From contig JAQWPM010000010.1 in the NCBI GenBank assembly GCA_029245345.1, forward strand, positions 7,501 to 66,719: a DNA stretch of 59,219 nt, given 5' to 3'. The notes under the pieces were generated by a model. That model saw only the letters and a program-made list of their open reading frames with translations. It searched no databases and was not told the origin of the DNA. The DNA is from Longimicrobiales bacterium (GTDB lineage: Bacteria; Gemmatimonadota; Gemmatimonadetes; Longimicrobiales; Gaopeijiaceae). The translations under genes and the position numbers were made by a program. Below, one piece after another: positions 23,113-48,584 of the stretch. The first letter of the stretch is position 1. Each line of letters opens with the position of its first letter.

Positions 23113-23114
23113 GG

Positions 23115-27767: not shown

Positions 27768-28753
27768 CCCCGTCCCTCCATCAGCTTCATTCTAGGATCA
27801 AGACGGACGTAGACGAGATCTACCACGAGGTTGAGCAAAATGAAGATCCCCGCCAGAAGAATGACCCCGGCCTGTACAAGGGGGATGTCCCGCTGATTGA
27901 TCGCGGCAAAGAGGAGGCGACCGATCCCCGGATAACTGAAGACCGTCTCCACGACCACCACCCCACCCAGCAGGAAGCCGAACTCGAGACCGATGATGGT
28001 CACGACCGGGAGCCACGCATTGCGCAGGGCGTGGTGAATCAGGACCCTCATCTCAGGAAGCCCTTTCGACCGAGCGGTCCGCACGTAGTCCTGCTCCATC
28101 ACCTCCAACAAAGAGGAGCGAATAAGGCGTGTGTTTCTCGCGAGAGAGTATGTCCCTACCGCGATCCCCGGAAGAATGAGGTGGAGGATTGTACGGGGAA
28201 GGTTCGAAATCGCCGTGCCGAAGTCTCCAGCCATCATGGGCGCGATGAACGGGACGTGTCCCGAGATGGGAAACCAGCGCAGGTAGAGCCCGAAGAAGAG
28301 GATCATCATGATCCCCAGCCAAAAGTTCGGAATCGACTGACCCAGCATGGCAAAGGTGGTTATAGACCCGTCCCACGCCGTCCCTCGATTGATCGCCGCC
28401 AGCACCCCCAGCGGGATGGCCAGGAGGAGCGCAATCACCATGGAAAAGATGGTTAGTTCGATTGTAGCCGGGAGCGCCTCCAGGACAATATCCATGGCAG
28501 GCTGCCGGTAGGAGAGGGACTGCCCGAAGTTGCCCCGGGCGAGGTCTCCCACGAAGCTCGCGTACTGAACATGGAGAGGCCGATCGAACCCTAGGGCCCG
28601 ACGGGTCGTTTCGATTTCCTCCTGGGATGCCCGCTCACTAACGAACAGGTACGTCGGGTCGCCTCCCGCTTGGAGCGCGAGAAAGGTTACCAGGGTCACA
28701 CCGATGACGACGACGATGCTCTGGAGAAGCCTCCGCAATATATATGATCCCAT
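27764..28753 (-). CDS. Dpp/Opp-type ABC transporter permease (DppB-like)
   Basis: 329 aa. Starts MGSYILRRLLQSIVVVIGVT, typical of DppB. Contains the EAA-type loop YVRTARSKGLPEMRVLIHHAL and ends LVYVRLDPRM. Coupled by a 4-nt overlap to the DppC-like gene and 28 nt after the binding-protein gene. Confidence 0.9.
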   Translation of the reverse strand: MGSYILRRLLQSIVVVIGVTLVTFLALQAGGDPTYLFVSERASQEEIETTRRALGFDRPLHVQYASFVGDLARGNFGQSLSYRQPAMDIVLEALPATIELTIFSMVIALLLAIPLGVLAAINRGTAWDGSITTFAMLGQSIPNFWLGIMMILFFGLYLRWFPISGHVPFIAPMMAGDFGTAISNLPRTILHLILPGIAVGTYSLARNTRLIRSSLLEVMEQDYVRTARSKGLPEMRVLIHHALRNAWLPVVTIIGLEFGFLLGGVVVVETVFSYPGIGRLLFAAINQRDIPLVQAGVILLAGIFILLNLVVDLVYVRLDPRMKLMEGRG

Positions 28754-28781
28754 CGAGCCTCCCTTTATGCCCGCACCGGGC

Positions 28782-30341: not shown

Positions 30342-30358
30342 ATATTCCTCTATTGTTC

Positions 30359-31363: not shown

Positions 31364-32268
31364 GCCCGTACCTCTCGAGCCAGGAGCACCCGCAGACCAT
31401 CGTCCGGAGAAGTCCAGGCAAAATCGCGGAGCGCCGGGATGTCGCTAGGAACCATCGGTGGCTTGACCTTTCCCGTCGCCGAAGCTCTTACGGGATTCGG
31501 GCCGGAAAGCTGAGACGCGATGAGGGTGGCGAACGCAGAGTCGCTCAGTACGTGCGGACTCCCTAGATGGACAGGGCCCGCTGCGGCAGGACCATCCACG
31601 GTCCGCTCGAGCGCTGCCGCCAGGTCGGCGATGAAGGTCCAGTCGCGCCGGGGATCATCCGCTCGAACGGCGAGAGGGTGGCCTTCCCGGGCTGAATTCA
31701 CCCAACCGGCCACCTGTGACACACCCAATCGGCTGGGTCGGGCCGCCTCGCCGGGACCGAAGAGGTAGCCCAAACGCATTACATGGCCCGCCGTGTCCTT
31801 TTCGAGGGCCACCGGGACCAGCAACTCTGCCGCCCTCTTGGCTACGGCATAGGGGGACGTCCCTGTGGGCTGGTGGGCATCGGTGAGCCCTTCGTCGCCG
31901 TCCGAGAGTCCAAAGACTCCGGACGAGCTAAGAAAGACGAAGGCGGCCGGACGGGTCCGGGCGCTGTACTCCAAAACAGCCAGGAGAGGTCGGACATTCA
32001 GGGCGACATACGCCGCCGCTGTCACGCCGAGCGTCTCGGCGTCCGTAGTAGTCCACGCTGCGTGCACCACCAGGTCTACTCCTGGTAGATCCGACGGCAC
32101 CCCATCGGCGAGTTCAGCGGTAACCTGACGGATACCATCGTCCTCCCATGCCGCGTCGAACGAACGGTCCAGGCCGATCACCTCCCAATCGAGCCGAGCG
32201 AAGCCCAGGGCCAGAGCGTTTCCAACGAAGCCACCCGCTCCGGTAACCAGCACCCGACGTGGCTTCAT
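31360..32268 (-). CDS. NAD-dependent epimerase/dehydratase (extended SDR)
   Basis: 302 aa from ATG 32268, which overlaps the GntR gene's stop (ATGA). Motifs: RVLVTGAGGFVGNALALGFA, DLVVHAAWTT, VFLSSSGVFG and YAVAKRAAE (YxxxK). Cytosolic, unlike the Tat-exported epimerase at 19663. Confidence 0.85.
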   Translation of the reverse strand: MKPRRVLVTGAGGFVGNALALGFARLDWEVIGLDRSFDAAWEDDGIRQVTAELADGVPSDLPGVDLVVHAAWTTTDAETLGVTAAAYVALNVRPLLAVLEYSARTRPAAFVFLSSSGVFGLSDGDEGLTDAHQPTGTSPYAVAKRAAELLVPVALEKDTAGHVMRLGYLFGPGEAARPSRLGVSQVAGWVNSAREGHPLAVRADDPRRDWTFIADLAAALERTVDGPAAAGPVHLGSPHVLSDSAFATLIASQLSGPNPVRASATGKVKPPMVPSDIPALRDFAWTSPDDGLRVLLAREVRA

Positions 32269-32969
32269 TCCGGCCTCTCGGCGATGCTGACCGGATCGAA
32301 GTCGGTAAGGGCATTGGCATGCTCGGAGACGAGGCGGACCGCCTGCTCTACGTCGTTGGCCTCCAGCCCTTTCACGATGGGTGGGTGTGTTCCCGCGATG
32401 TCCGCCAGGTCGACTTCCAGATCGTTGCGAAGCGACATGACTTGATGAATACGCAGGTACAGCCCCGCCCATAGCTGCGCCAGTAATTGATGATCGCAGA
32501 GAAGGATGAGGGTTCGGTGGAAGGCCCCGTCCGCCGCAATCAGAGCCTCTCGGTCACCCGCCCCGGCCGCCTCTTCCATGGCCCTACAGGGTGCCCAAAG
32601 CGTGTCCACAGGGGTGCCGTTCTCCAGGATGCGGCGCACAGCCATCACCTCGAAGTGTTCTCGCATCTCGCAAATTTCAGCCACCTCTCGAACCGTCAGC
32701 GGCTTCACGCGTTTCCCCTTGTAGGCCGCGGTCTCTACCAGGCCATCATTCTCGAGGTCTTGGATCGCCTCTCGGATGGGCGCACGGCTTACGTTCAGCT
32801 GTTCGGCCAGGGCGGTCTCCACCAGCGCAGCCCCCGGACGGAGCTTGCCCGTGACGATTGCGGAGCGGAGGCGCTCGGCGACCTGCACCCTAAGGGGCGT
32901 CTGCTCGATTGGGCCTAGCGACGACGTAACTTCCGACTGCGCACCCTCGAGCTCGTCGGATTCAGCCAT
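32265..32969 (-). CDS. GntR-type regulator, FadR/FCD subfamily
   Basis: 234 aa from ATG 32969, seven bases into the end of the AllA-like gene. Winged helix: TPLRVQVAERLRSAIVTGKL, LVETALAEQLNVSRAPIREA and LENDGLVETAAYKGKRV. FCD effector domain: EICEMREHFEVMAVR with later Asp and His (DGAFHRTLI, HPPIV, SEHANAL) that bind a metal and organic-acid ligands in this family. As the only regulator within the island it probably controls both arms; FCD regulators usually bind TnGT/ACnA-type palindromes, and such a site occurs at 38645-38654. Confidence 0.9.
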   Translation of the reverse strand: MAESDELEGAQSEVTSSLGPIEQTPLRVQVAERLRSAIVTGKLRPGAALVETALAEQLNVSRAPIREAIQDLENDGLVETAAYKGKRVKPLTVREVAEICEMREHFEVMAVRRILENGTPVDTLWAPCRAMEEAAGAGDREALIAADGAFHRTLILLCDHQLLAQLWAGLYLRIHQVMSLRNDLEVDLADIAGTHPPIVKGLEANDVEQAVRLVSEHANALTDFDPVSIAERPE

Positions 32970-33459
32970 CTGCGTGTGCTCGTGTGGCGGGGGCCACACC
33001 GGTTACCTCGAGCGAGGAGATACTAGCGAAGACGTCGTCCTCGTCCCCGCCCCGCCACATAAGGACGGCGAAGCTTGCCTCGGCATCGAGTACAGAAATC
33101 CCGGCGTGCCATGTCCCTGGGTGGTAGGCTACGCCCATGGTGCCCTGGAGGACGAAGGCAAGCGCGCCTGCGGTGTCAGGGGCCCCAGCCTCGTCGGCCG
33201 GCATGACGGTCACTAGGTAGCGTGATACCCCCATTGGAAGAAAGAGCTGGGAGGCATGGGGGTGGCGCTCGACCGTTTCCAAGCGGACCGGGAGCGTCGA
33301 GGGAGCCACCCGATTCAGGTGGCACTGCTGCGAAAGACCGGGCACCGGCTCCAGCCACTGGCTGAACATCGACCGATCCCCCACTCCGGCCGGCGATTCG
33401 AGAAAGGTCCCGAACGGCGCAAACGCAGCCGGATCCGGGTCGCGAGCGACTAGGTGCAT
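32962..33459 (-). CDS. allA: Ureidoglycolate lyase (AllA) family protein
   Basis: 165 aa from ATG 33459, overlapping the PuuE-like stop by 10 bp; a longer reading is overlap noise. AllA landmarks: FAPFGTFLES, CHLNRVAPSTLPVRLETVER, HPHASQLFLPMG, and the cupin core GVAYHPGTWHAGISVL with the catalytic His residues. AllA cleaves (S)-ureidoglycolate to glyoxylate and urea, the last step of allantoin breakdown. No allantoinase, allantoate amidohydrolase or urease is seen nearby, so the enzyme may act on a related ureido or amide compound. Confidence 0.75.
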   Translation of the reverse strand: MHLVARDPDPAAFAPFGTFLESPAGVGDRSMFSQWLEPVPGLSQQCHLNRVAPSTLPVRLETVERHPHASQLFLPMGVSRYLVTVMPADEAGAPDTAGALAFVLQGTMGVAYHPGTWHAGISVLDAEASFAVLMWRGGDEDDVFASISSLEVTGVAPATRAHADG

Positions 33460-34370
33460 GCGCGCACCTCCGGGGGAGGCACCTGCGCACGCCAGTGAGC
33501 CGCGAGATCCCCACGCCGGCAGATCCACGTGTCGTCCCGATTCTCTATGTGTTCGATGAAAGCTCGGAGCCCCCCAATTCGACCGGGCTGCCCCAGGATG
33601 CGGGCGTGCATCCCTACGGACATCATCCGCGGGTGCACCGCGGCCTCCGAGGCGAGTTCCTCGAAGGCGTCGATGAGGAACTCTCCGAAGGCCCTCCCCG
33701 TCACGAGGGGGCCTCCCACGAGCTTCGCGTCGTTGGTTACCAGCGAGTACGGCACGACCAGGTGGGGCTGATCCGCCACCGAGACCCAGTAGGGCAGTTC
33801 GTCGTTGTAGGCGTCGCTGTCGTAGGTGAAGCCCCCGTGCTCGACGAGAAGCCGCCGCGTGACAGAGGACGGTGCGTAGCGGCAGTACCATCCTTCAGGA
33901 GCGCGGCCGACCAGTCGATGAATCGTATCGAACGCCCGGGTGATCTCATCTCGTTCCGTGGCCTCGTCGAGGAGGTAGTGCTCGATCCACCGCCTCCCGT
34001 GACACACCACGTCCCAATCGCTGTCGGCGACAGCCTGGGCCGCGGCAGGATTTCGCTCAAGGGCAAGCGCCGAGGCGAACACGGTGAGCGGCAGTTCCCG
34101 GTCGCGGAAGAGCCGGTATAACCGCCAGAACCCCACCCGACTCCCGTACTCGAACATGCTTTCCGCCCCGAGGTCCCTTTGGCCCACGGGCACCCGGGTC
34201 TGCGCCACCTCTGAAAGCGCTGCGTCGGAGCGTCCATCTCCATCCTCTAGGGAGTACTCCGACCCCTCTTCGTAATTCAGTACGAAATTTACGGCCACGC
34301 GTGCTCCACCCGGCCACCAGATATCCGGTGGGCTCGGGCCGTAGCCCACGAAGTCGCGTTGGGTCTCCAC
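33450..34370 (-). CDS. puuE: PuuE-type polysaccharide-deacetylase-fold amidohydrolase
   Basis: 306 aa. N-terminus RDFVGYGPSPPDIWWPGGAR and VAVNFVLNYEEGSEYS are characteristic of PuuE cofactor-independent allantoinases, as are VGFWRLYRLFRDRELPLTVF and DVVCHGRRWIEHY. The fold is NodB-like, but the family acts on cyclic ureides rather than chitin. Immediately followed by the AllA-like gene. Whether the substrate is allantoin or another cyclic amide is open. Confidence 0.8.
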   Translation of the reverse strand: METQRDFVGYGPSPPDIWWPGGARVAVNFVLNYEEGSEYSLEDGDGRSDAALSEVAQTRVPVGQRDLGAESMFEYGSRVGFWRLYRLFRDRELPLTVFASALALERNPAAAQAVADSDWDVVCHGRRWIEHYLLDEATERDEITRAFDTIHRLVGRAPEGWYCRYAPSSVTRRLLVEHGGFTYDSDAYNDELPYWVSVADQPHLVVPYSLVTNDAKLVGGPLVTGRAFGEFLIDAFEELASEAAVHPRMMSVGMHARILGQPGRIGGLRAFIEHIENRDDTWICRRGDLAAHWRAQVPPPEVRACT

Positions 34371-34372
34371 AA

Positions 34373-35365
34373 TCAGTCTCGGGTCCCTTCGACTTTACAG
34401 AAGAAGCAACACCAGTCCCCGGTGGTGACGTTGGGGAGTGCCCGCAGCCCGAAGAACATCCCATCCGCCGGCGCCTCGAGTTGGGCGAGCGTGTCTCCGA
34501 ACACATTTACGATCCGCGCAATCGGATCGCCCTTCGCCATCATGGTGAGGAACTCGACGCCCGGCTCCGGAATGAAGATCCCGGACGCAGGAGCGAGGAG
34601 CGCCTCCTGCTGACCCCGGTAGCGCGGTGACGGATACAGCGCCTCGCCAGGATACATCTCGTAGTGTCGTAGGATGTTGAGGATGCTGTCGGCCAGCTCA
34701 CGACCCACGCGAGCGAACGCGGAGGGAGAGGTCGCGGAACGTCCACCAAGCTCCACGGTGATGCCGACCTTCCCGAGCTCCTTCATGTACGCCATGGGAC
34801 TTCCCGACGGGTTGAAGGAGGACATGATGCACCCCCAACCCACGCCCATGGCCGTCGCTAACTCCACCGACTCGGGCCGCTCGTCCACGAAGATGGCCTT
34901 GTCGAGGAAGGAGTGGGATCCACCCGAATGAATCGAGATCTCCAGATCCGCGACAGGTCCCATGGCGGCCGCATGGGCGGCAGCCACGCGCTCGCTGAGG
35001 TAGCCGGCGGGGTTCCCCGGATAAATCCGGTTCATGTCGTAGGCGAAGGTGTCCGCCGGGTTGCCTCGCTGCGCCGCCTCGAAGGCCGGAACATTCAACA
35101 CCGGGCAGAGGACGAGCGTCCCCGACAATTGTGCTGGGTCCACCTCCGCAAGCGCGATCTGACAGGCCAACGGCCCCTCTGGCTCATCGCCGTGGATCGC
35201 CCCATTGACCCAGAAGCAGGGCCCCTCGTTGGCCCCATTGGCGACCACGACGGGAATCTCGAGGGGGGTCCCCCCGGCAAGTTCGGTTACGGGAATCGCC
35301 CCACGGACAGCGGTCCCTGGCGCTGCGCTGGCGGTTCCTACGGTGACGGTACGGGTCGACGTCAT
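34373..35365 (-). CDS. Succinylglutamate desuccinylase/aspartoacylase family (M14-like) amidohydrolase
   Basis: 330 aa. Zinc site WVNGAIHGDEPEGPLA (HGDE), a mid-protein Arg in YDMNRIYPG, His in LEISIHSGG, and the catalytic Glu in GITVELGGRS. The C-terminal third (LLAPASGIFIPEPGVEF, KGDPIARIVNVFG) resembles the biotinyl-like barrel of this family. It removes N-acyl groups from amino acids. Two-base spacing to the PuuE-like gene. Confidence 0.85.
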   Translation of the reverse strand: MTSTRTVTVGTASAAPGTAVRGAIPVTELAGGTPLEIPVVVANGANEGPCFWVNGAIHGDEPEGPLACQIALAEVDPAQLSGTLVLCPVLNVPAFEAAQRGNPADTFAYDMNRIYPGNPAGYLSERVAAAHAAAMGPVADLEISIHSGGSHSFLDKAIFVDERPESVELATAMGVGWGCIMSSFNPSGSPMAYMKELGKVGITVELGGRSATSPSAFARVGRELADSILNILRHYEMYPGEALYPSPRYRGQQEALLAPASGIFIPEPGVEFLTMMAKGDPIARIVNVFGDTLAQLEAPADGMFFGLRALPNVTTGDWCCFFCKVEGTRD

Positions 35366-35366: not shown

Positions 35367-35864
35367 TCAAATTCCCTTGAAATCCTCGTATTCTTTCAAC
35401 TGTTCGGTCGTGTAGACCTGCATGAACTCGATCTCGATACCCCCCGCCTCGTCATCCAAAAAGGCGACCCATCCCTCAGGGTGCGGATGGGAGCCGTGGA
35501 TCTGGCAGGCCTGGCAGATCCTGAGCTCTGCCCCCTGGGCTTTCGCGTGGTCTAGAGCCGCGTCGATGTCATCCACCTCGTAACAGATGTGGTGAAGACC
35601 TTCGGCACCCCGCTCCGCGATCCACTTCGCGAACCGTCCCTCGGGGTCCATGGACTCGCAGAGCTGATACTCGATTCCCCCGAGATAAAAAAGCGCCACC
35701 CGGTTCTGCGACTTGGGGTAGACCTCGATGTCCGTCGAGGCGGGAACGTGTAGAAAACGGGCGTAGGACTTCAACGCCTTCGCGGCATCTCGCACAGCGA
35801 AGGCCATGTGCTTGATCCCGCGAACATTCGGATTGTCTGATTTCATCGGTGCGTGTCCTGTCAT
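35367..35864 (-). CDS. VOC superfamily protein (glyoxalase / methylmalonyl-CoA epimerase-like)
   Basis: 165 aa if ATG 35864 (ATGA overlap with the aminotransferase stop) is used, or 159 aa from ATG 35846, which has AGGA nine bases upstream. Two beta-alpha-beta-beta-beta units: IKHMAFAVRDAAKALKSYAR with a metal His, LCESMDPEG with a Glu, GLHHICYEVDDIDAALDHAK with the second His, and GIEIEFMQVY with the second Glu. All four metal ligands appear present. Epimerase, lyase or dioxygenase within the pathway; not distinguishable. Confidence 0.8.
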   Translation of the reverse strand: MTGHAPMKSDNPNVRGIKHMAFAVRDAAKALKSYARFLHVPASTDIEVYPKSQNRVALFYLGGIEYQLCESMDPEGRFAKWIAERGAEGLHHICYEVDDIDAALDHAKAQGAELRICQACQIHGSHPHPEGWVAFLDDEAGGIEIEFMQVYTTEQLKEYEDFKGI

Positions 35865-37066
35865 GCGACGGAGGTTTCTTGGCGTATGGACGCGACCACC
35901 CGGGCCATGCGTTCCAGTGCTTCGTGGATGCGAGGAATGGGTTGAGTCAGGGAGAAGCGCGCGTAGTCGTCCGTGTAGTCCCCGTAGATCAGTCCTGAAA
36001 AAATCATGACCTGCCCTTCGCGGAGGAGGCGCTCGCAGAACTCTGTGGCGCCGATACCGGTCTCCGCGACCTTCGCGTAGACGTAGAAGGCCCCTTGGGT
36101 TTCGGCGAACGGTATACCCAGGGACGCGAGACCGTCGCAGAGCACCTTCCTGCGCTCGTCGTAGGTGCGGCGCATCTCCTCCACGCACTCCTGCGGACCT
36201 GTGAGTGCGGCAAGCGCGGCGTGCTGACTCACGGCGGCGGTGGAGATCGCGAAGGAGTGGTGTATCTCGGCCAGCGCCGGCACGAGGTCAGAGGGACCAG
36301 CAAAATAGCCGATCCGCCATCCGGTCATGGCGTAAGCCTTCGAGAACCCCGAAAGGGTGAAGGTACGGTCCTGCATGCCAGGGAGCGGTGCTACCGGCTG
36401 CACCGTGTGGCCTTCGAATGTGATGCGAGCGTAGATCTCATCGGACACCACGAGCAGGTCATGCTGGCGAGCCACCTCGCAGATCCGGACTACCTCGTCC
36501 GGCGGAATCACAGTTCCGGTCGGATTGCCCGGGTTGATGAGAACCAGAACCTTGGACCGAGGCGTGATGTATTCCCGAACGAGGTCGGCCGTGAGCGTGA
36601 AATTCGTGGCACTCGTGGTCCGGATGTTCACCAGAGTGGCCCCGCTGAGCTCGGCCGCTTGGTGGTACGGGTTGTACCCCGGGCACGGAACGAGCAGCTC
36701 GTCTCCCGGGTCCAAAAGTCCGAGTGCGAGCACGAACATCGCCTGCTGCCCACCCGGGGTGACCACGACGTCTTCCGGAGCATAGCGAGCGCCCCCGTGG
36801 GCCTCGATATTCTCTACGATCGCCTGGCGAAGCTCGGGAATTCCCAGTGGATGCGTGTAGTGAGTGGCCCCCGACGCCAACGCCTCCTGACCCGCGCGGA
36901 TGATATGATCGGGCGTGTCTAGATCAGGGTCGCCACGGCCAAGTTTGATCACATCAGTCAGGCCCCCGGCTATGTCCATCATCCGGGTGACAATGTGGGC
37001 GTCCTTCAGCTTGACGCGTTTGGCGAGGCGACTTCGCCCCTGGGACACCCCAGTTTCAGAGTCCAT
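35861..37066 (-). CDS. Class I/II PLP-dependent aminotransferase
   Basis: 401 aa from ATG 37066, overlapping the M32 gene stop by 11 bp. PLP site: SGFSKAYAMTGWRIGYF (Lys and phosphate-binding Arg), NPGNPTGTV, VSDEIYARITFEG. AspC-like fold type I; substrates in this subfamily are aromatic or acidic amino acids. A paralogue with the same GLTDVIxLGRGDPD opening is at 43977-45155 on the opposite arm. Confidence 0.9.
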   Translation of the reverse strand: MDSETGVSQGRSRLAKRVKLKDAHIVTRMMDIAGGLTDVIKLGRGDPDLDTPDHIIRAGQEALASGATHYTHPLGIPELRQAIVENIEAHGGARYAPEDVVVTPGGQQAMFVLALGLLDPGDELLVPCPGYNPYHQAAELSGATLVNIRTTSATNFTLTADLVREYITPRSKVLVLINPGNPTGTVIPPDEVVRICEVARQHDLLVVSDEIYARITFEGHTVQPVAPLPGMQDRTFTLSGFSKAYAMTGWRIGYFAGPSDLVPALAEIHHSFAISTAAVSQHAALAALTGPQECVEEMRRTYDERRKVLCDGLASLGIPFAETQGAFYVYAKVAETGIGATEFCERLLREGQVMIFSGLIYGDYTDDYARFSLTQPIPRIHEALERMARVVASIRQETSVA

Positions 37067-38576
37067 AAATATCCGAGTACTTCTGCGTGAGGTGTTCAAT
37101 GTAGAAGCTGGGGTCGAGTCCCTGTCCCGTCGCCATCTCCAGCAGCTGATCTCGTGAGTATCGCCGACCGTGGCGGTGAATGTGCTCGGTCATCCACTCT
37201 CTCAGAGGCAGGTAGTCCGCTGAAGACAATCCTTCCCGCACCTGGGTGTCTTTCGTAGCGGAATGGAAGAGCTGCCCCGCCATGACATTGCCGATGGTGT
37301 AGTTGCAGAAAGTGCCCACCTGGCCCGACGACCAGTGGACGTCTTGAAGCACACCAAGCCGATCATTCGGAACATCTATATCCAAGTACTCCTTCATCTT
37401 AGCTCCCCACATCTCAGGCAGATCCGCAACACTGAGACTCCCATCGATGAGCGCTGCCTCGATATCCACACGGAGCATGATGTGGAAGTCGTAGGTCAAC
37501 TCGTCGGACTCCACCCTGATGAGCCCTGGCTCGACCCTGTTCACCGCCCGCCAGAAGGTTTCGGCGTCGATCCCCGCCAGCTGTTCGGGGAAGGCGTCGT
37601 GGAGTTCCCCATAATTCAGATCCCAGAACTCACGGCTCCTTCCTACGTGGTTTTCGAAGAGGCGAGACTGGCTCTCATGGGCCCCAAAGCTCACGCCACC
37701 CACTGCGTAAAGTCCGACGAGGTCAGTGGCCAGCGGCGTGCGGGTGTAAGCAGGGTCGCAGAACTGCTCGTAGAGACCGTGCCCCGTCTCGTGGAGGGTG
37801 CCGAAGAGGCTCTTGGGCATCCACTCGTCATTGACGCGCGTTGTGATCCGGACGTCGTTACGGGTGAAGGAGATCTCGAAAGGGTGGACGGTCAGGTCCA
37901 ATCGCCCCCGATCTGTGTCGTAGCCGAGCTTCTTAGCCATTTTAAGGGCGAAGGCAAGCTGCGACTCCACCGCGAAGGGGCGTTGGAGGAAGTCAACCCT
38001 CGGCGCCTCTTTTTCGCTGATAGCCTTCAGCAGGGGGAGGAGTCCTTCCCTGAGTGAAGCGAAGAGCGGCTGAAGGGAGGCGACGGTCTCGCCCGGCTCA
38101 AATCTGTACATGAGGGCGTCATACGGATGCTCTTCATACCCAATGCATTCCGCCATCTCCCGGTTCAGGGCGAGGGTCTCTTCAAGAACCGGAGCGAAGG
38201 ACGCGAAGTCGCTGTCCTCCCGTGCCTTCACCCACACCACCTGCCCCATGGCACCCACCTCGGCACGTTTGTGCACCAGAGCTGCCGGAATGCGAAGGTG
38301 ATAGTCGATGGCCTCCCTGACCTGCGTGCAGATCGTGCGTTCGACACTGCTTGCGTCGAGATTAGCGGTCTCGGCCTCGGCCTTCTCCAAGAGACGACGG
38401 GTGTCGTCCGCGACCAGGCGGTCGCGAGCGAGCACGGTCAGCGTGGCGAGCTGCTTCGCGCGTGTGGCAGCCCCACCCGAGGGCATCATCGTCCTCGAGT
38501 CCCAACTGAGCATCGACTCAGCGCAGAGGATATCGTTGACCTCTCCCATACGCTCTAGGAACGCTTTGTATCCCAT
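37056..38576 (-). CDS. M32 family metallocarboxypeptidase (Taq carboxypeptidase)
   Basis: 506 aa from ATG 38576. HEXXH site is TLHETGHGLYEQF; further M32 blocks are RTMMPSGGAATRAKQLA, FENHVGRS, and EADELTYDFHIMLR-like ESDELTYDFHIMLR. Length is normal for the family (~500). Cytosolic removal of C-terminal residues from peptides. First gene of the minus-strand arm, so it starts directly at the shared promoter region. Confidence 0.9.
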   Translation of the reverse strand: MGYKAFLERMGEVNDILCAESMLSWDSRTMMPSGGAATRAKQLATLTVLARDRLVADDTRRLLEKAEAETANLDASSVERTICTQVREAIDYHLRIPAALVHKRAEVGAMGQVVWVKAREDSDFASFAPVLEETLALNREMAECIGYEEHPYDALMYRFEPGETVASLQPLFASLREGLLPLLKAISEKEAPRVDFLQRPFAVESQLAFALKMAKKLGYDTDRGRLDLTVHPFEISFTRNDVRITTRVNDEWMPKSLFGTLHETGHGLYEQFCDPAYTRTPLATDLVGLYAVGGVSFGAHESQSRLFENHVGRSREFWDLNYGELHDAFPEQLAGIDAETFWRAVNRVEPGLIRVESDELTYDFHIMLRVDIEAALIDGSLSVADLPEMWGAKMKEYLDIDVPNDRLGVLQDVHWSSGQVGTFCNYTIGNVMAGQLFHSATKDTQVREGLSSADYLPLREWMTEHIHRHGRRYSRDQLLEMATGQGLDPSFYIEHLTQKYSDIYGL

Positions 38577-38752
38577 GCTGTGGCCTCTTTTTCCCACGAT
38601 GGGGCCCGATTTGCATCGGAGCCTCGGGTACCGTAGTCTGTATGTTGTCGACAATCCACAGGCGACTGAGCAACCTGCCCTCCGTCGACCGGGCTTGTCA
38701 AGCAGGTGCCTCGACACCCGTCACATGGGCTGCTTCAGCGCTCCGGAGATGT
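38577..38752. promoter_or_regulatory. Shared divergent promoter region of the catabolic island, with TTGTCGACAA palindrome
   Basis: This 176-bp spacer separates divergent starts at 38576 and 38753 and is the only sizeable spacer within 24 genes. It contains the perfect palindrome TTGTCGACAA at 38645-38654, close to the TnGT(n)ACnA pattern of FCD-type GntR operators. CGGAGATGT gives a ribosome site for the plus-strand gene. No other copy of the palindrome was noticed in spacers of the window. Confidence 0.55.
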
Positions 38753-39622
38753 ATGAACGAAGAGCTTCGGTGGAACTTCGACGAACTCGTGGACATGGCG
38801 GTGACCGGGCAGGTGAGTCAGCCCGCGATGCGTCGCGGCGGATACGTCCACTGGCCCGATGGCGTCGGTGTCATCCTCCCCGGCATGTACGGGATCACCT
38901 ATAACGCGCGGGTGGGCGACCGGGCCTTTGGTTGGGCTGGGGACCACGTAGAGCCAGGGGTTTCCATAGCCAACCCAGACGAACAGGCCGACTACGCCCT
39001 GCACTATTTGAGCTGTATCGGGAACGAGGCCGAGGTCGTGACAGGCCTAGCTCGGGGTGCCCGCGGCGTGGTTACGGGCGAGCATGCCCGTCTTCTCGTT
39101 GATTTTCCCCCCGAAGTCCTCGAGGAGATGACCATCGGCGACACCGTCCAGGTCCGGACCCGGGGTCGCGGACTTCGGCTGCTGAGCCATCCCGCCCTCG
39201 AATTCAAGCAGACCAGCCCTTCCCTTGCCCGGGCGCTGGCACTCGAGATTCAGGGCAATAAGGTGACGTGTCCCGTGGCCATGGAGCTCCCGCCCCGCAT
39301 CATGGGCTCAGGTGCCGAACTAAACGCCGAGTTCGTAGACCAGGACCTCATGTCTGGAGACCGAGCCCTGATGGCGGAACTCGGTATTGATCAGATGCGC
39401 CTTGGGGACCTGATCGGAATCCGGAATGTCGACCATCGTTTCGGACGCTCCTACCGAGATGGATGGGTGGCCATCTGCCTCTGCATCCACGGAGACTCGG
39501 TCATGACAGGCCACGGACCCGGAATCCTTACCCTCATCACAGGTCCGGCCGACCTCTTGGACTTTCATATCGAACCCGAAACGAACATAGCCCACTCCCT
39601 CGGCATCCGGGGTTCGACATGA
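38753..39622 (+). CDS. DUF4438 family protein, first of a tandem pair
   Basis: 289 aa from ATG 38753 with GGAG upstream; a longer reading would enter the promoter region. Signature blocks: GVILPGMYGITYNARVGDRA, FGWAGDHVEPGVSI, LSCIGNEAEVVTG, GARGVVTGEH and DQMRLGDLIGI. DUF4438 proteins are known structurally from Thermotoga but have no assigned activity. The conserved Asp/Glu/His set around GDHVEPG could form a metal or substrate site. First gene of the plus-strand arm. Confidence 0.85.
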   Translation: MNEELRWNFDELVDMAVTGQVSQPAMRRGGYVHWPDGVGVILPGMYGITYNARVGDRAFGWAGDHVEPGVSIANPDEQADYALHYLSCIGNEAEVVTGLARGARGVVTGEHARLLVDFPPEVLEEMTIGDTVQVRTRGRGLRLLSHPALEFKQTSPSLARALALEIQGNKVTCPVAMELPPRIMGSGAELNAEFVDQDLMSGDRALMAELGIDQMRLGDLIGIRNVDHRFGRSYRDGWVAICLCIHGDSVMTGHGPGILTLITGPADLLDFHIEPETNIAHSLGIRGST

Positions 39623-40509
39623 CCCAACAGAATTCGATCGCCACCAACGAAGTCGATCTCATTGCGGTCTCCGTGGCTGGAGTCGTTGCACACCCCGCCT
39701 TCCCGGGATTGCCCGCTGAGCCCTATCGGCTGGCAAACGACGGCACGCCCTTTCTGCTCCCCACCTACGGGGGCATCGTCTACAACGTCTCGACGGGAGA
39801 TCGAGCCTTCGGATGGGCAGCAGACTGCATCCATCCGGGCGTGAGCATCCACCAGCCCGACGACAACCAGAACCGGGGGTTAAACGTCTTCGCCTGTGTT
39901 GGGAATCGAGCCCGTGTGGTGTCCGGCGGGGCCGCAGGGACGACGGGGGTGGTCACCGGCAAGTCCGGCCGCTTCTCCGAGCAGGTCATCGTACACATCG
40001 CTCCTGAGGCCAGGACCCGTATGGCCGTGGGGGACCAGGTGCTGATCCGAGCCGAGGGTGTGGGCCTCAGCCTCACGCATCACCCCGGAGTCACGCTCAA
40101 GGGGATTTCGCCGGGACTATTGGCCGCGCTGCCGGTTCGTGAAGAAGAGGGACATGTCGCCTTCGGCGTGACCGCACAAATCCCCGCGCACCTCGTCGGC
40201 GCCGGGCTCGGCCTGACCTCTGAAGGCGGAAGCCTACACATGCAGTCCACCGACAGGGAGCTGTTGGCGGAGCTACGACTAGATCAACTACGCCTCGGCG
40301 ATCTGGTGGCGCTGGACGACACCGACAGCCGTTACAACCACGGATACCTGCGTGGCGCGCGCGCGATCGGCGTGGTTGCCTCCACCGATGGTCCCCGAGC
40401 CGGTTACGGACCGGGAATCGCCATTCTCATGACCGCTCCCGCCGGGCAACTCGGGAGCTTCGAGTCGCCTGAAGCCAACCTCGTCCAACTTCTGAATCTG
40501 GAAGACTGA
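39619..40509 (+). CDS. DUF4438 family protein, second of a tandem pair
   Basis: 296 aa from ATG 39619 overlapping the previous stop (ATGA). Same blocks as its neighbour: LLPTYGGIVYNVSTGDRAFG, WAADCIHPGVSIHQPD, FACVGNRARVVSG, GTTGVVTGKSG, LRLDQLRLGDLVALDDTDSR. The copies differ throughout, so they are old paralogues and may form a heteromer. Function unknown. Confidence 0.85.
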   Translation: MTQQNSIATNEVDLIAVSVAGVVAHPAFPGLPAEPYRLANDGTPFLLPTYGGIVYNVSTGDRAFGWAADCIHPGVSIHQPDDNQNRGLNVFACVGNRARVVSGGAAGTTGVVTGKSGRFSEQVIVHIAPEARTRMAVGDQVLIRAEGVGLSLTHHPGVTLKGISPGLLAALPVREEEGHVAFGVTAQIPAHLVGAGLGLTSEGGSLHMQSTDRELLAELRLDQLRLGDLVALDDTDSRYNHGYLRGARAIGVVASTDGPRAGYGPGIAILMTAPAGQLGSFESPEANLVQLLNLED

Positions 40510-40513: not shown

Positions 40514-41593
40514 GTGATTCCTATGACCGCAGTGACCGGAGAGAGTCTCGGCGTGTTCGTTGTCGAAGTCCTTCGGGCGATGGGACTCCCTGAGGAGGAG
40601 GCCGAGATCTTTGGTGGTGCCCTCCTCTTCTCCGAACTCCGCTTCCACCCCGGCCACGGCCAGGGGGTCAAGAAGCTGAGGCGCTACGGCGAGCGGTTCG
40701 CACGAGGGCTCGTGGACCCCTCCGCGCCGTGGGAACCGGTAAAGGAGAGCCCCGCACTGGCCTTGGTCGATGCCCACAACGGAATCGGCACGGTCGCCGC
40801 CGCCCGAGGCATGCGCCTGGCCATCGAGAAGGCCAAGGTATGCGGAATCGGACAGGTAGTGGTCCGGAATTCCACACACTTCGGCTCAAGTGCCGTACAT
40901 GCATGCCTGGCGGCAGACGAGGGATGCATAGGCATCGCCCTCACCAACGCCGGGCCCGAGATGGCACCATGGGGTGCACGGGAAGGTGCCGTGGGCACGA
41001 ATCCTTGGGGAATCGCCGCACCCACCGGACTCGGGTTCCCAGCAGTGCTCGACATCGCCCTTACTACGGCCGGAAAGGGCATGATGACCTGGAATGCCCA
41101 AGAGGGGCGCTCCATGCCGCTGGACTGGGCGCTCACGCCCGAGGGGGAAGAGACGGACGATCCGAGCGCCGCCATGGCCGGAGCCCTGCTGGGTATCGGA
41201 CGTTACAAAGGCTATGGGCTGGCGTTTATGACCGACGTGCTCACCGGTGTCATCGCCGGAGGCGGGTACGGTCTCACGCCGTACTCCGTCGAGGGGAAAA
41301 TGGACGTGAGTCACACACTGATCGCCCTTGATATCGATTGGTTCATGCCGCTCGAGGAATTCCGGAAACGGATGGACGACTTCGCGTCGATGGTAAAGTC
41401 CAGAGCCCTTCGACCGGGCTTCGATGAAATCCTCATCCCTGGGGAGCAGGAAGCTAGACGCGTCGCCCGAAAGTCCGCGGCCGGAGTCCCTTTGGAGAAC
41501 GGAGCACTCGACGACCTCCGAGTTCTGGGAGCAGAGCTCGGCGTCACCGCGGAAATCGTCGTCGTGGGCCCGTGGGAGGACGCAACGCTTTGA
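40514..41593 (+). CDS. Malate/L-lactate/ureidoglycolate dehydrogenase (Ldh/AllD family)
   Basis: 359 aa from GTG 40514; ATG 40523 is the alternative. Family blocks: FSELRFHPGHGQGVKKL with the catalytic His, VVVRNSTHFGSSAVHACLA, IGIALTNAGPEMAPWGAREG, VGTNPWGIAAPTG and YKGYGLAFMTDVLTGVI. The HFG...APWG region is like AllD ureidoglycolate dehydrogenases and like YlbC/MDH2. With AllA-like and PuuE-like genes on the opposite arm, an alpha-hydroxy acid or ureidoglycolate-like substrate is plausible. Confidence 0.85.
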   Translation: MIPMTAVTGESLGVFVVEVLRAMGLPEEEAEIFGGALLFSELRFHPGHGQGVKKLRRYGERFARGLVDPSAPWEPVKESPALALVDAHNGIGTVAAARGMRLAIEKAKVCGIGQVVVRNSTHFGSSAVHACLAADEGCIGIALTNAGPEMAPWGAREGAVGTNPWGIAAPTGLGFPAVLDIALTTAGKGMMTWNAQEGRSMPLDWALTPEGEETDDPSAAMAGALLGIGRYKGYGLAFMTDVLTGVIAGGGYGLTPYSVEGKMDVSHTLIALDIDWFMPLEEFRKRMDDFASMVKSRALRPGFDEILIPGEQEARRVARKSAAGVPLENGALDDLRVLGAELGVTAEIVVVGPWEDATL

Positions 41594-42741
41594 AGCCCCT
41601 TCCCTCTTCCTTCTACGACAACGTCCGCCAGCGACTGCGGGAGCGGGCTCAAGGAAACCGACTCGACGGGCTTCTGCTGCTAGGAGCCGGGAATGTTGGG
41701 TACGCGACGGGCTGGCACTTCTCCGTGAACGAGCGCCCTATGGGACTCTGGCTCCCGGTGGATGGCGCAGCGCTTCTCCTCGTGCCTCATCTGGAGCTTG
41801 AGAACGCTATGGAGGTGCCCGGGGTTGAGGTACGTACCTACGACGAGTTCCCTGGTGAGCGTCCCCCAGTCCTCTGGATGATCGAGGAGGCAGGTGCGAA
41901 GCAGATCGCAGTGGACAGGTTGGACGCCAACCTCCTTGCGCCGGCACGGGCAAGCCTCACCCGACTGGACCTCGTTGACCACGCGAAGCCGGAGCGCGCG
42001 GTCAAAGACGGCGCAGAGCTTGGGTTAATACGTGAGGCTGCGCGTTTCGCCGATATGGTCCTAGAGCGACTCCTCGGGATGGGGGGAGACATCATCCAAC
42101 AAGGCGGAACGGAGGAGGACCTGCTCGAGGACTGCACCGGGCATGTAAGGAAGCTCCTTTCGGCGACCCACGGGGAAGCCTTCCAGGGAACGCAAACACG
42201 CATCACGGCATCGGTCCACTCCGGCTCGCGGGCCGCCCTACCGCACGGCTCCGTGACGGCCCGCCGCCCTCTTCCCGGAGACCCCATCGTGGCTGGAATC
42301 GGGTGCAGCCTCGGGGGCTACCATGCCGAGAGCGGGGCGACCCTCGTGCTAGGAGAGATTCGCCCCGAGCAACGGCGGGTGATGGAGGCTATGGCCGAGG
42401 CTGGCGCTGCCACGGTCCACGCGCTCGAGCGGGGTTGGACTTGCTCCAAGGTGAACGAGGCCGCGCTCGCCCCCATTCGGGGTGCTGGGTTGGCGGACTC
42501 GATTCGCCACCGAATCGGCCACGGAATGGGCGTTGAGGGGCACGAGGCGCCTTGGCTGGCACCCGGTGACCACACCCCCACCGCCCCAGGCATGGTCTTC
42601 TCGTGTGAGCCCGGCGTGTACCGCCCGGGTTTGGACGGATGGCGTACCATTGATACCCTCGTGGTCGGTCATGAAATGGTTGAGCTGGCGAGCCGCTTCC
42701 AGACCCGCCACCCTCTTGAGACTCGAACCCTTTCCTGCTGA
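41590..42741 (+). CDS. M24 family (creatinase/aminopeptidase P fold) protein with altered metal ligands
   Basis: 383 aa from TTG 41590, which overlaps the Ldh stop and has GGGAGGA 8-9 nt upstream; GTG 41572 is an alternative. N-terminal creatinase-like domain, then the pita-bread fold: ALPHGSVTARRPLPGD (His), RIGHGMGVEGHEAP (His), SCEPGVYRPG (Glu). The two usual Asp ligands are not found: AGIGCSLGGYHAESGATL has Gly and Glu where a peptidase has Asp, and the last Glu is Asp in WRTIDTLVV. Creatinase and ectoine hydrolase are non-metal members with similarly changed ligands, so this is probably an amidohydrolase rather than a peptidase. Confidence 0.8.
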   Translation: MKPLPSSFYDNVRQRLRERAQGNRLDGLLLLGAGNVGYATGWHFSVNERPMGLWLPVDGAALLLVPHLELENAMEVPGVEVRTYDEFPGERPPVLWMIEEAGAKQIAVDRLDANLLAPARASLTRLDLVDHAKPERAVKDGAELGLIREAARFADMVLERLLGMGGDIIQQGGTEEDLLEDCTGHVRKLLSATHGEAFQGTQTRITASVHSGSRAALPHGSVTARRPLPGDPIVAGIGCSLGGYHAESGATLVLGEIRPEQRRVMEAMAEAGAATVHALERGWTCSKVNEAALAPIRGAGLADSIRHRIGHGMGVEGHEAPWLAPGDHTPTAPGMVFSCEPGVYRPGLDGWRTIDTLVVGHEMVELASRFQTRHPLETRTLSC

Positions 42742-42753: not shown

Positions 42754-43980
42754 ATGCCGGAACCCGCTGCCTGGCGTTATCAGAAAATCACCAAGCCCAT
42801 GTTCGACCTTCCGACCCCGCACCTAGTGCTCACGGGACGGGTGCTGACCATGGTGGGGGACGTCATCGAAGACGGATACGTGGAGCTACTGGAGGGCAAG
42901 ATCGTGGCGGTCGGTCCCCGGGCCGACTTGGAGGCGGGGTCCGCATTAGTGGAGGAGACCGGTGGTACTCTGATGCCGGGCCTCATCAATAGCCACGCGC
43001 ACCTGAATTGGGACGGCATTCACGATCTCGCTCGCCAATCGATGGACGACCCTCGTCCGATCTCGGCGTTCAAGGCAGCCGGAAACATGCTAAAGAGCTT
43101 ACGAGCCGGCGTCACGATGGTCCGAGACCTAGGGTTCCACGAGATGAACCTTTTCTCCAAGCAGGCAGTGGAACAGGGGATTTTTCCGGGACCGAGACTG
43201 AAGGTCTGCGGGGCTGCCATCATCCAGACGGGAGGGCATACCTACTGGGTCTGCAAGGAGGCCAGCGGTGCGGACGAGATGCGCCGGGCGGTTCGGGAAC
43301 AGGTCAAAGGAGGAGCAGACCTCATCAAGATCATGGCTTGCCACGACACCCTCGAGTTCACCGACGAGGAGCTGCACGCCGTCATCGACGAGGCACATCG
43401 CAACGGCCTTCCCATTACCGCGCACGCCACCTACGACGCCTGCATTGAGCGAGTAGCCCGCTTCGGGGTGGACTGCATTGAGCACGGAGGGTCCATGTCG
43501 GACGCCACCGTGGCACTACTCCTGGAGAATGAGATCCCAGTGGTCACGACCTTCGCGCCCCTCGTACAGCAGAGCCAACCCGACATCGCGCGCCGCTTCG
43601 GGATTCCTGAGTGGAAAATCGAAGAACGACAAAAGGCGGTGGCCAACCCGGATCGGTATGAGGGGCTGGTGAAGGCTGCCCGCGCAGGTGTCTCCATCGT
43701 CTTCGGGACCGACGCAGGGAGTCCGGCGGTCGAGCATGACGTCATTGCACCGGAACTCGCCCATATGGTGAAGGTCGGAGTGTGCACGGACAATATGGAT
43801 GCCCTGGCGTCCATCACCGTTCGTGCAGCCCGGCTCTCGAAGATGGATCACTTAGTGGGTACGCTTGAGGTCGGGAAGGCGGCCGACCTCATCGTGGTCG
43901 ATGGCCGTCCGGACCACGATCTGAGCAACCTAGAGTGCGTAACGACGACCTTCGTCGGTGGCCGAAGAATGTACGGATGA
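42754..43980 (+). CDS. Metal-dependent amidohydrolase (imidazolonepropionase/prolidase-like)
   Basis: 408 aa; GAGGA before the ATG. Amidohydrolase ligands in order: GLINSHAHLNWDG (HxH), ADLIKIMACHD (carboxylated Lys), PITAHATYDACI (His), CIEHGGSMSD (His), and VFGTDAGSPAVEHD (Asp). C-terminal GTLEVGKAADLIVVDGRPD returns to the composite beta-sandwich. The subgroup acts on Xaa-Pro, Xaa-Arg/Lys dipeptides, imidazolone or related cyclic amides. Cytosolic, no signal peptide. Confidence 0.9.
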   Translation: MPEPAAWRYQKITKPMFDLPTPHLVLTGRVLTMVGDVIEDGYVELLEGKIVAVGPRADLEAGSALVEETGGTLMPGLINSHAHLNWDGIHDLARQSMDDPRPISAFKAAGNMLKSLRAGVTMVRDLGFHEMNLFSKQAVEQGIFPGPRLKVCGAAIIQTGGHTYWVCKEASGADEMRRAVREQVKGGADLIKIMACHDTLEFTDEELHAVIDEAHRNGLPITAHATYDACIERVARFGVDCIEHGGSMSDATVALLLENEIPVVTTFAPLVQQSQPDIARRFGIPEWKIEERQKAVANPDRYEGLVKAARAGVSIVFGTDAGSPAVEHDVIAPELAHMVKVGVCTDNMDALASITVRAARLSKMDHLVGTLEVGKAADLIVVDGRPDHDLSNLECVTTTFVGGRRMYG

Positions 43981-45155
43981 GCCTCCTCACAGATCGCCTG
44001 GCCCCCCGTATCCTCGAAGAAGACGGTGCCTTCCGGACCCGCATGCTCGGTATCGCGGCTGGCCTAACCGACGTTATCGCTCTGGGACGAGGTGACCCGG
44101 ACTTCCACACGCCGGCCCACATCGTGACAGCCGCCAAAGCGGCACTCGACGCCAACCAGCATCACTACACCGGCCCCACAGGGATCCCGGAGCTTCGCGA
44201 CGCGATCGCCGCGGACCTCAACTCCCAGTACGGGCTCGATTACAGGTCCGATGAGATCGTGGTCACAGCTGGGGCCCAAGAGGCCATCATGCTCACCATG
44301 CTGGGTCTCTGTTCACCCGGAGACGAGGTGCTCATTACGAGTCCCCGGTTCACGACCTACGACACGGCGGTTCATCTCTGTGGAGGCACACCCGTACCCG
44401 TCCCCACCTTCGAACGGGACGACTTCGCCCTAGATGTGGCAGAAATCGAGAAACGGATCACCCCTCGCACCAAGATGTTCGTGCTGGTGTCCCCCAATAA
44501 TCCGACTGGAGCCGTGACACCTCCGGCGGCGATCCGGGCGATCGCCGACCTGGCCATAAGGCACGACCTCATCATCGTGGCCGACGAGATTTACGGGCGG
44601 ATGATCTATACGCCGAATGAGCATCTCTCCATCGCCACGCTTCCCGGCATGCGCGAGAGAACGATCACGCTCAACGGCTTCTCCAAGACATACGCCATGA
44701 CCGGATGGCGGATCGGGTACCTCGCCGCCCCCGCCGACTTGGTGGAGGCGTTGACCGAACCGCGGCACACCCTCTCAATCAACAGCTGCACCATCAGCCA
44801 GCACGCCGCACTGGCGGCGCTCACCGGTCCGCAGGAACCCATCGATGCGATGATGGAGACATACGGCGAACGTCGGAGCTGGCTCATGCCCGCTCTGACC
44901 GAGGCTGGCTTCACCTACGGCCACCCCGGAGGAGCCTTCTACATCTACACGAACGTCTCATCTTCGGGGCTCACGGCCCCCGACTTTTGCCTGCGCCTCC
45001 TCCAGGAGGCGGGAGTGATGGTCTTCCCGGGGACCATGTTCGGGGACGACAGCACCGACTATATCCGAATCAGCTATCTCCAGCCGCTCCCGATGATCCA
45101 GGAGGCGGTTGAACGCATCGCCTCCTTCACCTCCCGCGTCAGAACCGCCTCATGA
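43977..45155 (+). CDS. Class I/II PLP-dependent aminotransferase (second copy)
   Basis: 392 aa from ATG 43977 overlapping the amidohydrolase stop. GLTDVIALGRGDPDFHTPAH opening, NNPTGAV, VADEIYGRMIY, and NGFSKTYAMTGWRIGYLAA with the PLP Lys. Clearly paralogous to 35861-37066; both arms thus carry one copy. The presence of two suggests two transamination steps or a heteromer. Confidence 0.9.
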   Translation: MSLLTDRLAPRILEEDGAFRTRMLGIAAGLTDVIALGRGDPDFHTPAHIVTAAKAALDANQHHYTGPTGIPELRDAIAADLNSQYGLDYRSDEIVVTAGAQEAIMLTMLGLCSPGDEVLITSPRFTTYDTAVHLCGGTPVPVPTFERDDFALDVAEIEKRITPRTKMFVLVSPNNPTGAVTPPAAIRAIADLAIRHDLIIVADEIYGRMIYTPNEHLSIATLPGMRERTITLNGFSKTYAMTGWRIGYLAAPADLVEALTEPRHTLSINSCTISQHAALAALTGPQEPIDAMMETYGERRSWLMPALTEAGFTYGHPGGAFYIYTNVSSSGLTAPDFCLRLLQEAGVMVFPGTMFGDDSTDYIRISYLQPLPMIQEAVERIASFTSRVRTAS

Positions 45156-46576: not shown

Positions 46577-46608
46577 GCGTCGAACGACCAGCCGTCAAAG
46601 GAGGGTCC

Positions 46609-47619
46609 ATGAAGTCGCCACCCTTGTTGGAGGTGCGCGACCTCCAGACAAGCTTCAGCCTCGGCGGACGTGAGCCGCTGGTCGCTGTAGATGCGATCGG
46701 GTTTACGGTGGACCATGGAGAGACACTCGCCGTCGTTGGCGAGAGCGGGTCGGGCAAGTCGGTGACGGCGCTCTCCATCATGCGCCTGCTTCCGCCCAGG
46801 GTGGGACAGATCACCGGAGGATCGATCCGGCTCGGAGACCGAGAAATCACCACGCTATCTGAGGAAGAGATGCGCGCCATTCGCGGCCAGGAGATCGGGA
46901 TGATCTTCCAGGAGCCGATGACGAGCCTAAACCCGGTGCACACCGTGGGCGTACAGATCGCCGAAGTGCTCATCGAACACGAAGGGCTCACTGCCCCGGA
47001 GGCCCGGGAGCGGGCTATCGCCCTGATTGAGACCGTCGGCATTTCAGAGCCGATGCGGCGCGTCGACAACTATCCCCACGAGATGTCGGGAGGAATGCGC
47101 CAGCGCGCCATGATCGCCATGGCGCTGGCGTGTCGTCCGAGTATCCTCATCGCCGACGAGCCGACGACCGCTCTCGACGTCACCATCCAGGCTCAAATCT
47201 TGGATCTCATGGAAGAGCTCCAGGCCCGGCTCGGGATGGCGCTCATCTTCATTACGCACGACTTGAGCGTAGTGGCTCAGATGGCAAAGCGGGTCGTGGT
47301 CATGTACGCCGGACAAGTCGTGGAGGCCGGTCCAGTGGCGGAGATCTTCAGCAACCCCAAAATGCCCTACACCGCCGGACTCATAGCATCGATTCCCCGG
47401 CTGGGCAGCTCGAGACGGGGCCAACGCCTCCCAACCATTCCCGGGCACGTCCCCTCGCTTTCGGAACGTCCGTCCGGTTGCCGATTCTCCACCCGATGCC
47501 GCCACGTACAGCCTGACTGCAGAGCCGGGTCTCCCCCCCTTGAACAGGTCTCCGACGGACGCGAGGTGCGGTGCCTGCGTTGGCGTGATCTGGACCTGAC
47601 TTCGGAAGGTGCTTCGTGA
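46609..47619 (+). CDS. Dpp/Opp-type ABC transporter ATP-binding protein (DppD-like)
   Basis: 336 aa from ATG 46609 with an ideal AAAGGAGG site. Walker A GESGSGKS, signature [15 protein letters not shown], Walker [13 protein letters not shown], switch His ITHDLSVV. C-terminal oligopeptide-type extension with Cys residues in [14 protein letters not shown]. Energises import with the permeases at 26859-28753. Located on the opposite arm from them. Confidence 0.92.
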
Positions 47620-48584
47620 CGAACGACATTCTTCGCGTGGAGGGTCTCGTGAAGCGCTTCCCCATTCGAGGAGGCACGCTTAATCGCGTGGTCGATCATG
47701 TCCAGGCAGTGAATGGCGTGTCCTTCACCGTGCGCCGCGGAGAGGTTCTCGGGCTCGTGGGTGAGAGCGGTTCAGGGAAGACTACCGTGGGCCGCCTCGT
47801 GCTACGGCTCGCGGAGGCGACCGCGGGTAAGGTGATCTTCGACGGGACGAACCTCCTAGAACTGTCGAAAAGAGACATGCGGCTCTTCCGGAAGCGAATG
47901 CAGATCATCTTCCAGGATCCCTACGCGAGCCTGAACCCACGGGAGAAGGTTCGGACAGTCCTCGGACACGCCCTGGCATTGCATCGCATTGGTACGCCCG
48001 AGAGCAGGAGCGAGCGTACCGTAGAACTCATGCGCAAGGTAGGGCTCTCTCCCGCTCAATTGGACCGATTTCCCCACGAATTCTCCGGCGGGCAGCGCCA
48101 GAGAGTCGGAATCGCTCGAGCTTTGGCGGTAAACCCCGAGTTCTTGGTGGCGGACGAGCCGGTCTCAGCGCTCGATGTGTCCATCCAGGCCCAAGTGATC
48201 AACCTCCTGAGTGATCTCAAGGATGAGCTGGACCTAACCATGCTCTTCATTGCCCACGACCTGGCAGTGGTGGAGCACATATGCGATCGGGTAGCCGTGA
48301 TGTACCTCGGCAAAATCATGGAGATCGCTCCCTCCGGGGCCTTGTACGACAAGCCGAATCATCCGTATACCGAGGCGCTCCTCTCGGCGATCCCGGTGCC
48401 GGAGCCCGGCCGCGCTCGGAAGAGGACCGTCCTGACCGGGGACATCCCCAGCGCGATCAACCCTCCCTCCGGATGCGTCTTTCGGAGTAGATGTCCGCGT
48501 GCGAAGGCCATCTGCGCACAAGAGACGCCCGAACTGAAGCCGGTCGGCCCGGACCACTTCAGCGCCTGCCACCTAACGACCTGA
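47616..48584 (+). CDS. Dpp/Opp-type ABC transporter ATP-binding protein (DppF-like)
   Basis: 322 aa from GTG 47616 overlapping the DppD-like stop (GTGA). Walker A GESGSGKT, signature FSGGQRQRVGIARAL, Walker B FLVADEPVSALD, IAHDLAVV. Q-loop region includes MQIIFQDPYASLNPREKVRT. Ends CVFRSRCPRAKAICAQE, the Cys-rich OppD/F tail. Last gene of the plus-strand arm. Confidence 0.92.
   Translation: MTNDILRVEGLVKRFPIRGGTLNRVVDHVQAVNGVSFTVRRGEVLGLVGESGSGKTTVGRLVLRLAEATAGKVIFDGTNLLELSKRDMRLFRKRMQIIFQDPYASLNPREKVRTVLGHALALHRIGTPESRSERTVELMRKVGLSPAQLDRFPHEFSGGQRQRVGIARALAVNPEFLVADEPVSALDVSIQAQVINLLSDLKDELDLTMLFIAHDLAVVEHICDRVAVMYLGKIMEIAPSGALYDKPNHPYTEALLSAIPVPEPGRARKRTVLTGDIPSAINPPSGCVFRSRCPRAKAICAQETPELKPVGPDHFSACHLTT

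Follow-up and report, generated by a model that had tools for sequence, protein, structure and literature searches.

Paired DUF4438 paralogues, one with a canonical and one with a rewritten site, as candidate subunits of a heteromeric enzyme in a catabolic cluster found in several phyla

The closest described relative of the two proteins studied here is TM1086 of Thermotoga maritima, which consists of the DUF4438 domains PF14505 and PF20999. The literature on TM1086 and its structures 3DCL and 3N99 yielded a single paper, a report on structural-genomics methods in which TM1086 crystals are described as having an asymmetric unit of more than 1 MDa (PMC2661377), and no open-access paper naming the DUF4438 family was found. 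We compared TM1086 with the products of two adjacent genes, A and B, in the window (the whole stretch of 59,219 nucleotides that was analysed). AlphaFold models of A (pLDDT 94.3) and B (pLDDT 92.1) resembled TM1086 in the whole fold (TM about 0.9, 35–38% identity); the query-normalised TM scores given by Foldseek were 0.91–0.92 for A and 0.89–0.90 for B. No significant match beyond TM1086 was obtained when the models were compared by fold, and the structural matches listed for them included neither acetamidase/formamidase (FmdA_AmdA) nor any other amidase. The fold comparison pointed to no known enzyme, and the sole whole-fold match is itself without known function. In addition, the N-terminal barrel lies near the barrel of the F1-ATPase alpha subunit (Z about 9 over about 68 residues, VIA-align), a likeness that we rejected as a functional clue because this small barrel is common.

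Both domains, PF14505 at the N terminus and PF20999 at the C terminus, are present in A (4.2e-46, 156.4 bits, and 2e-37, 128.3 bits, respectively) and in B (1.4e-48, 164.5 bits, and 1.1e-37, 129.1 bits), far above the Pfam gathering cut-offs of 24.9 and 27. A matched TM1086 (3N99, 3DCL) at 3e-58 and B matched it at 4e-55, while A and B share 38% identity with each other. A and B are ancient diverged paralogues. The window's genome holds these two DUF4438 copies and no third. An initial annotation of the window had described a DUF4438 tandem overlapping by 4 nt and had singled out the segments GDHVEPGVSI in A and ADCIHPGVSI in B; the shared ATGA, the two domains in each protein and both segments were found as described (Table 1).

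Table 1. Positions of the DUF4438 genes, their neighbours and related features (window coordinates unless a locus or genome is named)
Feature	Position	Strand	Basis or remark
DUF4438 A, canonical-type subunit, 289 aa	38753..39622	+	Pfam, TM1086 homology, residue census, AlphaFold model
DUF4438 B, putative partner with rewritten site, 296 aa	39619..40509	+	Pfam, TM1086 homology, residue census, AlphaFold model
ATGA stop/start overlap of A and B	39619..39622	+	Sequence; gaps in 98 pairs
A segment DHVEPGVSIA (D64-H65-V66-E67)	38942..38971	+	Sequence, alignment, residue census
B segment DCIHPGVSIH (D69-C70-I71-H72)	39823..39852	+	Sequence, alignment, residue census
Palindrome TTGTCGACAA, candidate GntR/FCD operator	38645..38654	.	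Within divergent promoter region
M32 carboxypeptidase, divergent from A	37056..38576	-	PF02074 6e-170; conserved
Ldh_2-family NAD(P)-dependent dehydrogenase, directly after B	40514..41593	+	PF02615
M24 peptidase-fold hydrolase	41572..42741	+	PF00557
Amidohydrolase	42754..43980	+	PF01979; arginine carboxypeptidase and Xaa-Pro dipeptidase entries are among its solved relatives
Class I/II aminotransferase	43935..45155	+	PF00155
GHL10-like protein, 474 aa	45152..46576	+	PF02638 weak, 22.5 bits, below cut-off 27.9
Opp/Dpp-type ABC ATPases, two genes	46606..48584	+	PF00005, PF08352
Second class I/II aminotransferase	35861..37099	-	PF00155
VOC/glyoxalase-fold protein	35367..35846	-	PF13669
AstE/AspA deacylase, DoeB-like	34373..35365	-	PF24827; below DoeB cut-off
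PuuE-allantoinase-like polysaccharide-deacetylase-fold protein	33450..34370	-	TIGR03212 354.1 bits, below 424.6; structure 3CL6 (PuuE)
Ureidoglycolate-lyase family protein	32962..33501	-	PF04115, 86 bits
GntR/FCD regulator	32265..32999	-	PF00392, PF07729; candidate palindrome binder
Dpp-type permeases and substrate-binding protein	26859..30341	-	PF00496 (binding protein); permeases by sequence
Fused DUF4438 pair in L030	1102-2970	-	N half degenerate, C half canonical
Fused DUF4438 pairs, further genomes	G891, G958, G996, G1004, G1012 (L182-L192)		N half degenerate, C half canonical

To gain an overview of the pairing, 98 distinct pairs from several phyla were collected; A lay directly upstream of B in each, with gaps of at most 44 bp throughout, and the two genes overlapped in 76 of the 98, an upper bound because B starts were picked nearest the overlap. 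When one genome per species was scanned with a profile, 80 loci with a B-type gene were detected in Gemmatimonadota, Alphaproteobacteria, Acidobacteriota, Deinococcota, Chloroflexota and a cyanobacterial MAG (taxa as labelled in the records), and an A-type gene was directly upstream in 80/80. No B without A was found in the loci examined. In one locus (L249:6706-8228) the B-type frame behind the A-type gene is shortened, possibly through decay, a frameshift or a sequencing error. When whole genomes from widely spread loci were inspected, exactly two DUF4438 copies lay side by side in 16/16, and the distance matrices of A and B correlated with r 0.94, a co-divergence expected for any neighbouring genes. 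The cluster is patchy: within the window's own family, DUF4438 was detected in 17 of 121 genomes and was absent from the sole congener listed, and in the family of G270 it was present in 6 of 198 sampled genomes, with two copies in each of the six. Furthermore, matches to Rhodobacteraceae and Acidobacteria records reach 73–76% identity, and identities this high across phyla suggest that the A/B cluster spread horizontally, with binning errors in MAGs as the alternative. One locus (L074), labelled Enemella evansiae and thus an actinobacterium by name, grouped with Rhodobacteraceae in the genome sample and is probably mislabelled or misassigned.

To compare the two paralogues residue by residue, columns conserved at ≥95% in 48 single-copy proteins were tracked through A, B and the halves of fused DUF4438 proteins (see below). 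Nine of these columns hold functional-type residues (H60, E62, H106, S184, D195, D197, R228, H243 and H251 in TM1086 numbering). Their equivalents in A are H65, E67, H111, S186, D196, D198, R232, H246 and H254, all nine canonical, and those in B are C70, H72, S116, A195, S205, H207, H241, S255 and Y263, none of them canonical; overall, the canonical residues occurred at 0.99–1.00 in A (n=96) versus 0–0.03 in B (n=93). Invariant Gly/Pro positions were retained in B at 26 of 29. Loss fell on charged residues and histidines rather than on Gly/Pro in B (Fisher p 0.002) and in the fused N half (p 0.003), with no bias in A or the fused C half, although these p-values count columns as independent and serve as a guide only. 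The replacements in B are themselves fixed, with H72, H207, H241 and S205 each in 92/93 sequences, Y263 in 87/93 and C70 in 85/93, which argues that B has not simply decayed. B has lost only part of the site in five deeply diverged pairs: H60, E62, S184, D195, D197 and R228 were lost and H106, H243 and H251 were largely retained, while A showed two changes. We infer that the nine canonical residues of A form a candidate catalytic or metal-binding site, and the earlier suggestion that the conserved segment could hold a metal or a substrate is thus borne out to the extent that the census marks a likely functional site. The Glu/His pair stressed in that annotation is real, as E67 in A and H72 in B are each fixed on their side, but it is one among nine changes.

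A tree of 259 sequences separated A and B into a clade each, beside a single-copy group including TM1086, and the five diverged A copies were placed with uncertainty. In a third arrangement, a single open frame of 622–778 codons encodes two DUF4438 units as a fusion; this was found in six genomes, of which one belongs to Gemmatimonadota (L030) and the other five come from the Acidobacteriota sample; the L030 protein has an apparent signal peptide. The fused N and C halves are sister clades (support 0.985) within the single-copy group and therefore stem from a duplication separate from that of A and B. In the C half eight canonical residues occurred at 1.00 and R228 in 4/6, while in the N half the canonical residues were lost, except S184 in 3/6 and R228 in 1/6, and mostly non-ligand residues stood at the lost positions. 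The fused proteins are like A/B in combining one canonical with one degenerate unit, but they do so in one polypeptide, with the degenerate half first, so that the order is reversed, and among other neighbours. A second duplication with the same one-sided loss suggests that an asymmetric heteromer arose on two occasions.

Considering the pairing and the census together, A and B are probably two different subunits that together make up a single heteromeric DUF4438 enzyme. A would contribute the canonical site and B would retain the fold with its site rewritten to the six fixed residues; given this rewriting, B is most likely not a duplicate of the same enzyme but an obligate partner whose role is to shape, complete or regulate the site. 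Both subunits would be made from the overlapping start and stop. Asymmetric heteromers of paralogous subunits are a known kind of assembly, and A/B would be a new case of it in a family without function.

As a special case of this heteromer, B might be a pure pseudoenzyme that only stabilises A or controls it allosterically, as could be expected from a protein in which all nine canonical residues are gone from a retained glycine scaffold, and the fused N half resembles a true pseudo-half. We regard this as rather doubtful, given that the replacement residues of B are strongly conserved, which suggests more than a scaffold. It is unlikely that A and B are separate homo-oligomeric enzymes for successive or parallel pathway steps, with B having gained a new specificity through residues of its own. 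Such a B would account for the fixed replacements as parts of a working site, TM1086 as a single copy needs no partner, and constant adjacency and co-inheritance would also fit successive enzymes that horizontal transfer had carried along as a unit; however, B does not occur without A in the loci examined (the shortened frame above still follows an A), the start and stop of the two genes overlap, and the fused pair, which arose independently, has likewise lost the site on one side only, with mostly non-ligand residues in the lost half. That DUF4438 is a binding or carrier protein whose conserved residues hold a ligand or metal without turnover is improbable, because a His/Asp/Glu/Ser/Arg set that is invariant across phyla, among catabolic enzymes and beside dehydrogenases, would be more typical of a catalyst, even though the whole-fold comparison brought up no enzyme and TM1086 was crystallised without an assigned function.

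To explore the setting in which the proposed heteromer would act, gene neighbourhoods were counted in the 58 AB loci whose flanks were complete. Ldh_2 and a class I/II aminotransferase were each present in 55, a VOC protein in 51 and the GHL10-like protein in 41; M32, M24 and amidohydrolase genes were each found in 40, PuuE-like genes in 36, and ureidoglycolate-lyase-like and DoeB-like genes in 35 each. The clusters of some relatives hold an extra allantoinase/dihydroorotase-like hydrolase, an M20 deacylase or an M14 carboxypeptidase. Judged from these families, the context of the A/B branch is one of amide, ureide and peptide chemistry. The window's cluster is flanked by an M20 peptidase (23689-25164), a peptidase-like exported protein (21367-22929) and a DUF885 protein (48978-50849), which add to the peptide-degrading theme. 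The GHL10-like protein, for which no PDB relative was found, is another orphan of the pathway, present in most clusters. Beyond the regulator gene the minus arm goes on (19663-32268) with Gfo/Idh, SDR and NAD-epimerase genes, and the Chloroflexota versions of the cluster are likewise headed by Gfo/Idh, epimerase, GntR and binding-protein genes. One A–B pair without the usual Ldh_2 has an FmdA/AmdA (acetamidase/formamidase) gene close by (L098:9760-10683).

The plus arm opens with A, whose start lies 176 bp from the divergent M32 start; this layout would be consistent with A and B being the first genes expressed, as the initial annotation had proposed. A promoter scan of this 176-bp region found no sigma-70 consensus. 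The region does contain the palindrome TTGTCGACAA, whose core TGT(C/A)(G/T)ACA was present upstream of A in 64 of 77 loci (consensus ATTGTCGACAAT), compared with 0.7% of the other chunks of the same loci and 1 of 51 single or fused genes. The palindrome is therefore a probable GntR operator, and the GntR/FCD gene within the cluster is the candidate binder; A and B would then probably be produced under this regulator. The 12-mer TTGTCGACAATC has one further location in the window's genome, which was rejected as a chance occurrence because it lies in an unrelated gene region.

Single-copy DUF4438 genes have other surroundings. In the sample of the phylum of G274, taken as Pseudomonadota because G274 is part of the Rhodobacteraceae sample, DUF4438 was present in 69 of 299 genomes, nearly always as a single copy. 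A nitrilase-family gene followed single-copy DUF4438 in 26 of 30 loci, with aat ahead of DUF4438 in several; these nitrilases are closest to deaminated-glutathione amidase, yet score below its cut-off. The Pseudomonadota loci L194-L222, L236-L241 and L250 have DUF4438 directly upstream of the nitrilase, often with aat upstream. Other single copies adjoin selB (L161), CO-dehydrogenase-type genes (L166) or unrelated genes. The initial annotation had taken context to tie DUF4438 to amide, ureide or peptide catabolism, a link that holds for the A/B branch in many genomes and breaks down for the family as a whole, in which the single copies beside nitrilase and aat, selB or CO-dehydrogenase-type genes are DUF4438 genes without catabolic context. 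A family-wide catabolic role was accordingly rejected on these single-copy contexts, while the nitrilase beside them points again to amide chemistry.

In the pathway that we propose, a peptide-like compound would be imported via the Dpp-type transporter and its amide or ureide bonds would then be broken. Five diverged pairs have a 344–347 aa protein directly upstream of A, which is D-2-hydroxyacid dehydrogenase-like (one was confirmed by Pfam). Because a dehydrogenase of another family here replaces Ldh_2, we speculate, with considerable reserve, that the adjacent Ldh_2 handles a 2-oxo or 2-hydroxy acid and that A/B acts on an amide or cyclic amide of this acid. More broadly, it is plausible, if short of probable, that DUF4438 is an unrecognised amide/cyclic-amide enzyme family whose homo-oligomer gave rise to an asymmetric heteromer on at least two occasions, and that A/B marks an undescribed, horizontally spread pathway with a GntR operator in several phyla. 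The initial annotation understated the pair. For a family with two solved structures and no function, the census gives nine positions to mutate, the contrasts between A and B and between fused half and half are internal to the family, and the operator may mark a regulon. Census and cluster together would make a testable enzyme out of an orphan family and point to a widely shared catabolic pathway, and the recurrent one-sided loss would be a clean case for how homo-oligomers turn into heteromers.

A literature search on the family names of the cluster gave no match, and no cluster member reached the equivalog cut-offs of the named allantoin or ectoine pathway enzymes. The cluster has homologues of three enzyme families of allantoin/ureidoglycolate degradation (PuuE, ureidoglycolate lyase and AllD), but its PuuE match and its match to the AllD ureidoglycolate dehydrogenase equivalog (135.8 vs 496.2) are below the curated cut-offs, and allantoin degradation is without the DUF4438, M24, M32 and aminotransferase genes that are all present in the window's cluster. 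Ectoine catabolism (DoeA/DoeB) combines an M24-fold hydrolase, a DoeB-like deacylase and aminotransferases as the cluster does, but the cluster's scores are far below the cut-offs (DoeA 36.5 vs 575 bits; DoeB 98.2 vs 402.7), and to our knowledge the known ectoine pathway includes no DUF4438 protein. With TM1086, A shares all nine site residues and B shares none, and where Thermotoga has a single copy, the window has a pair.
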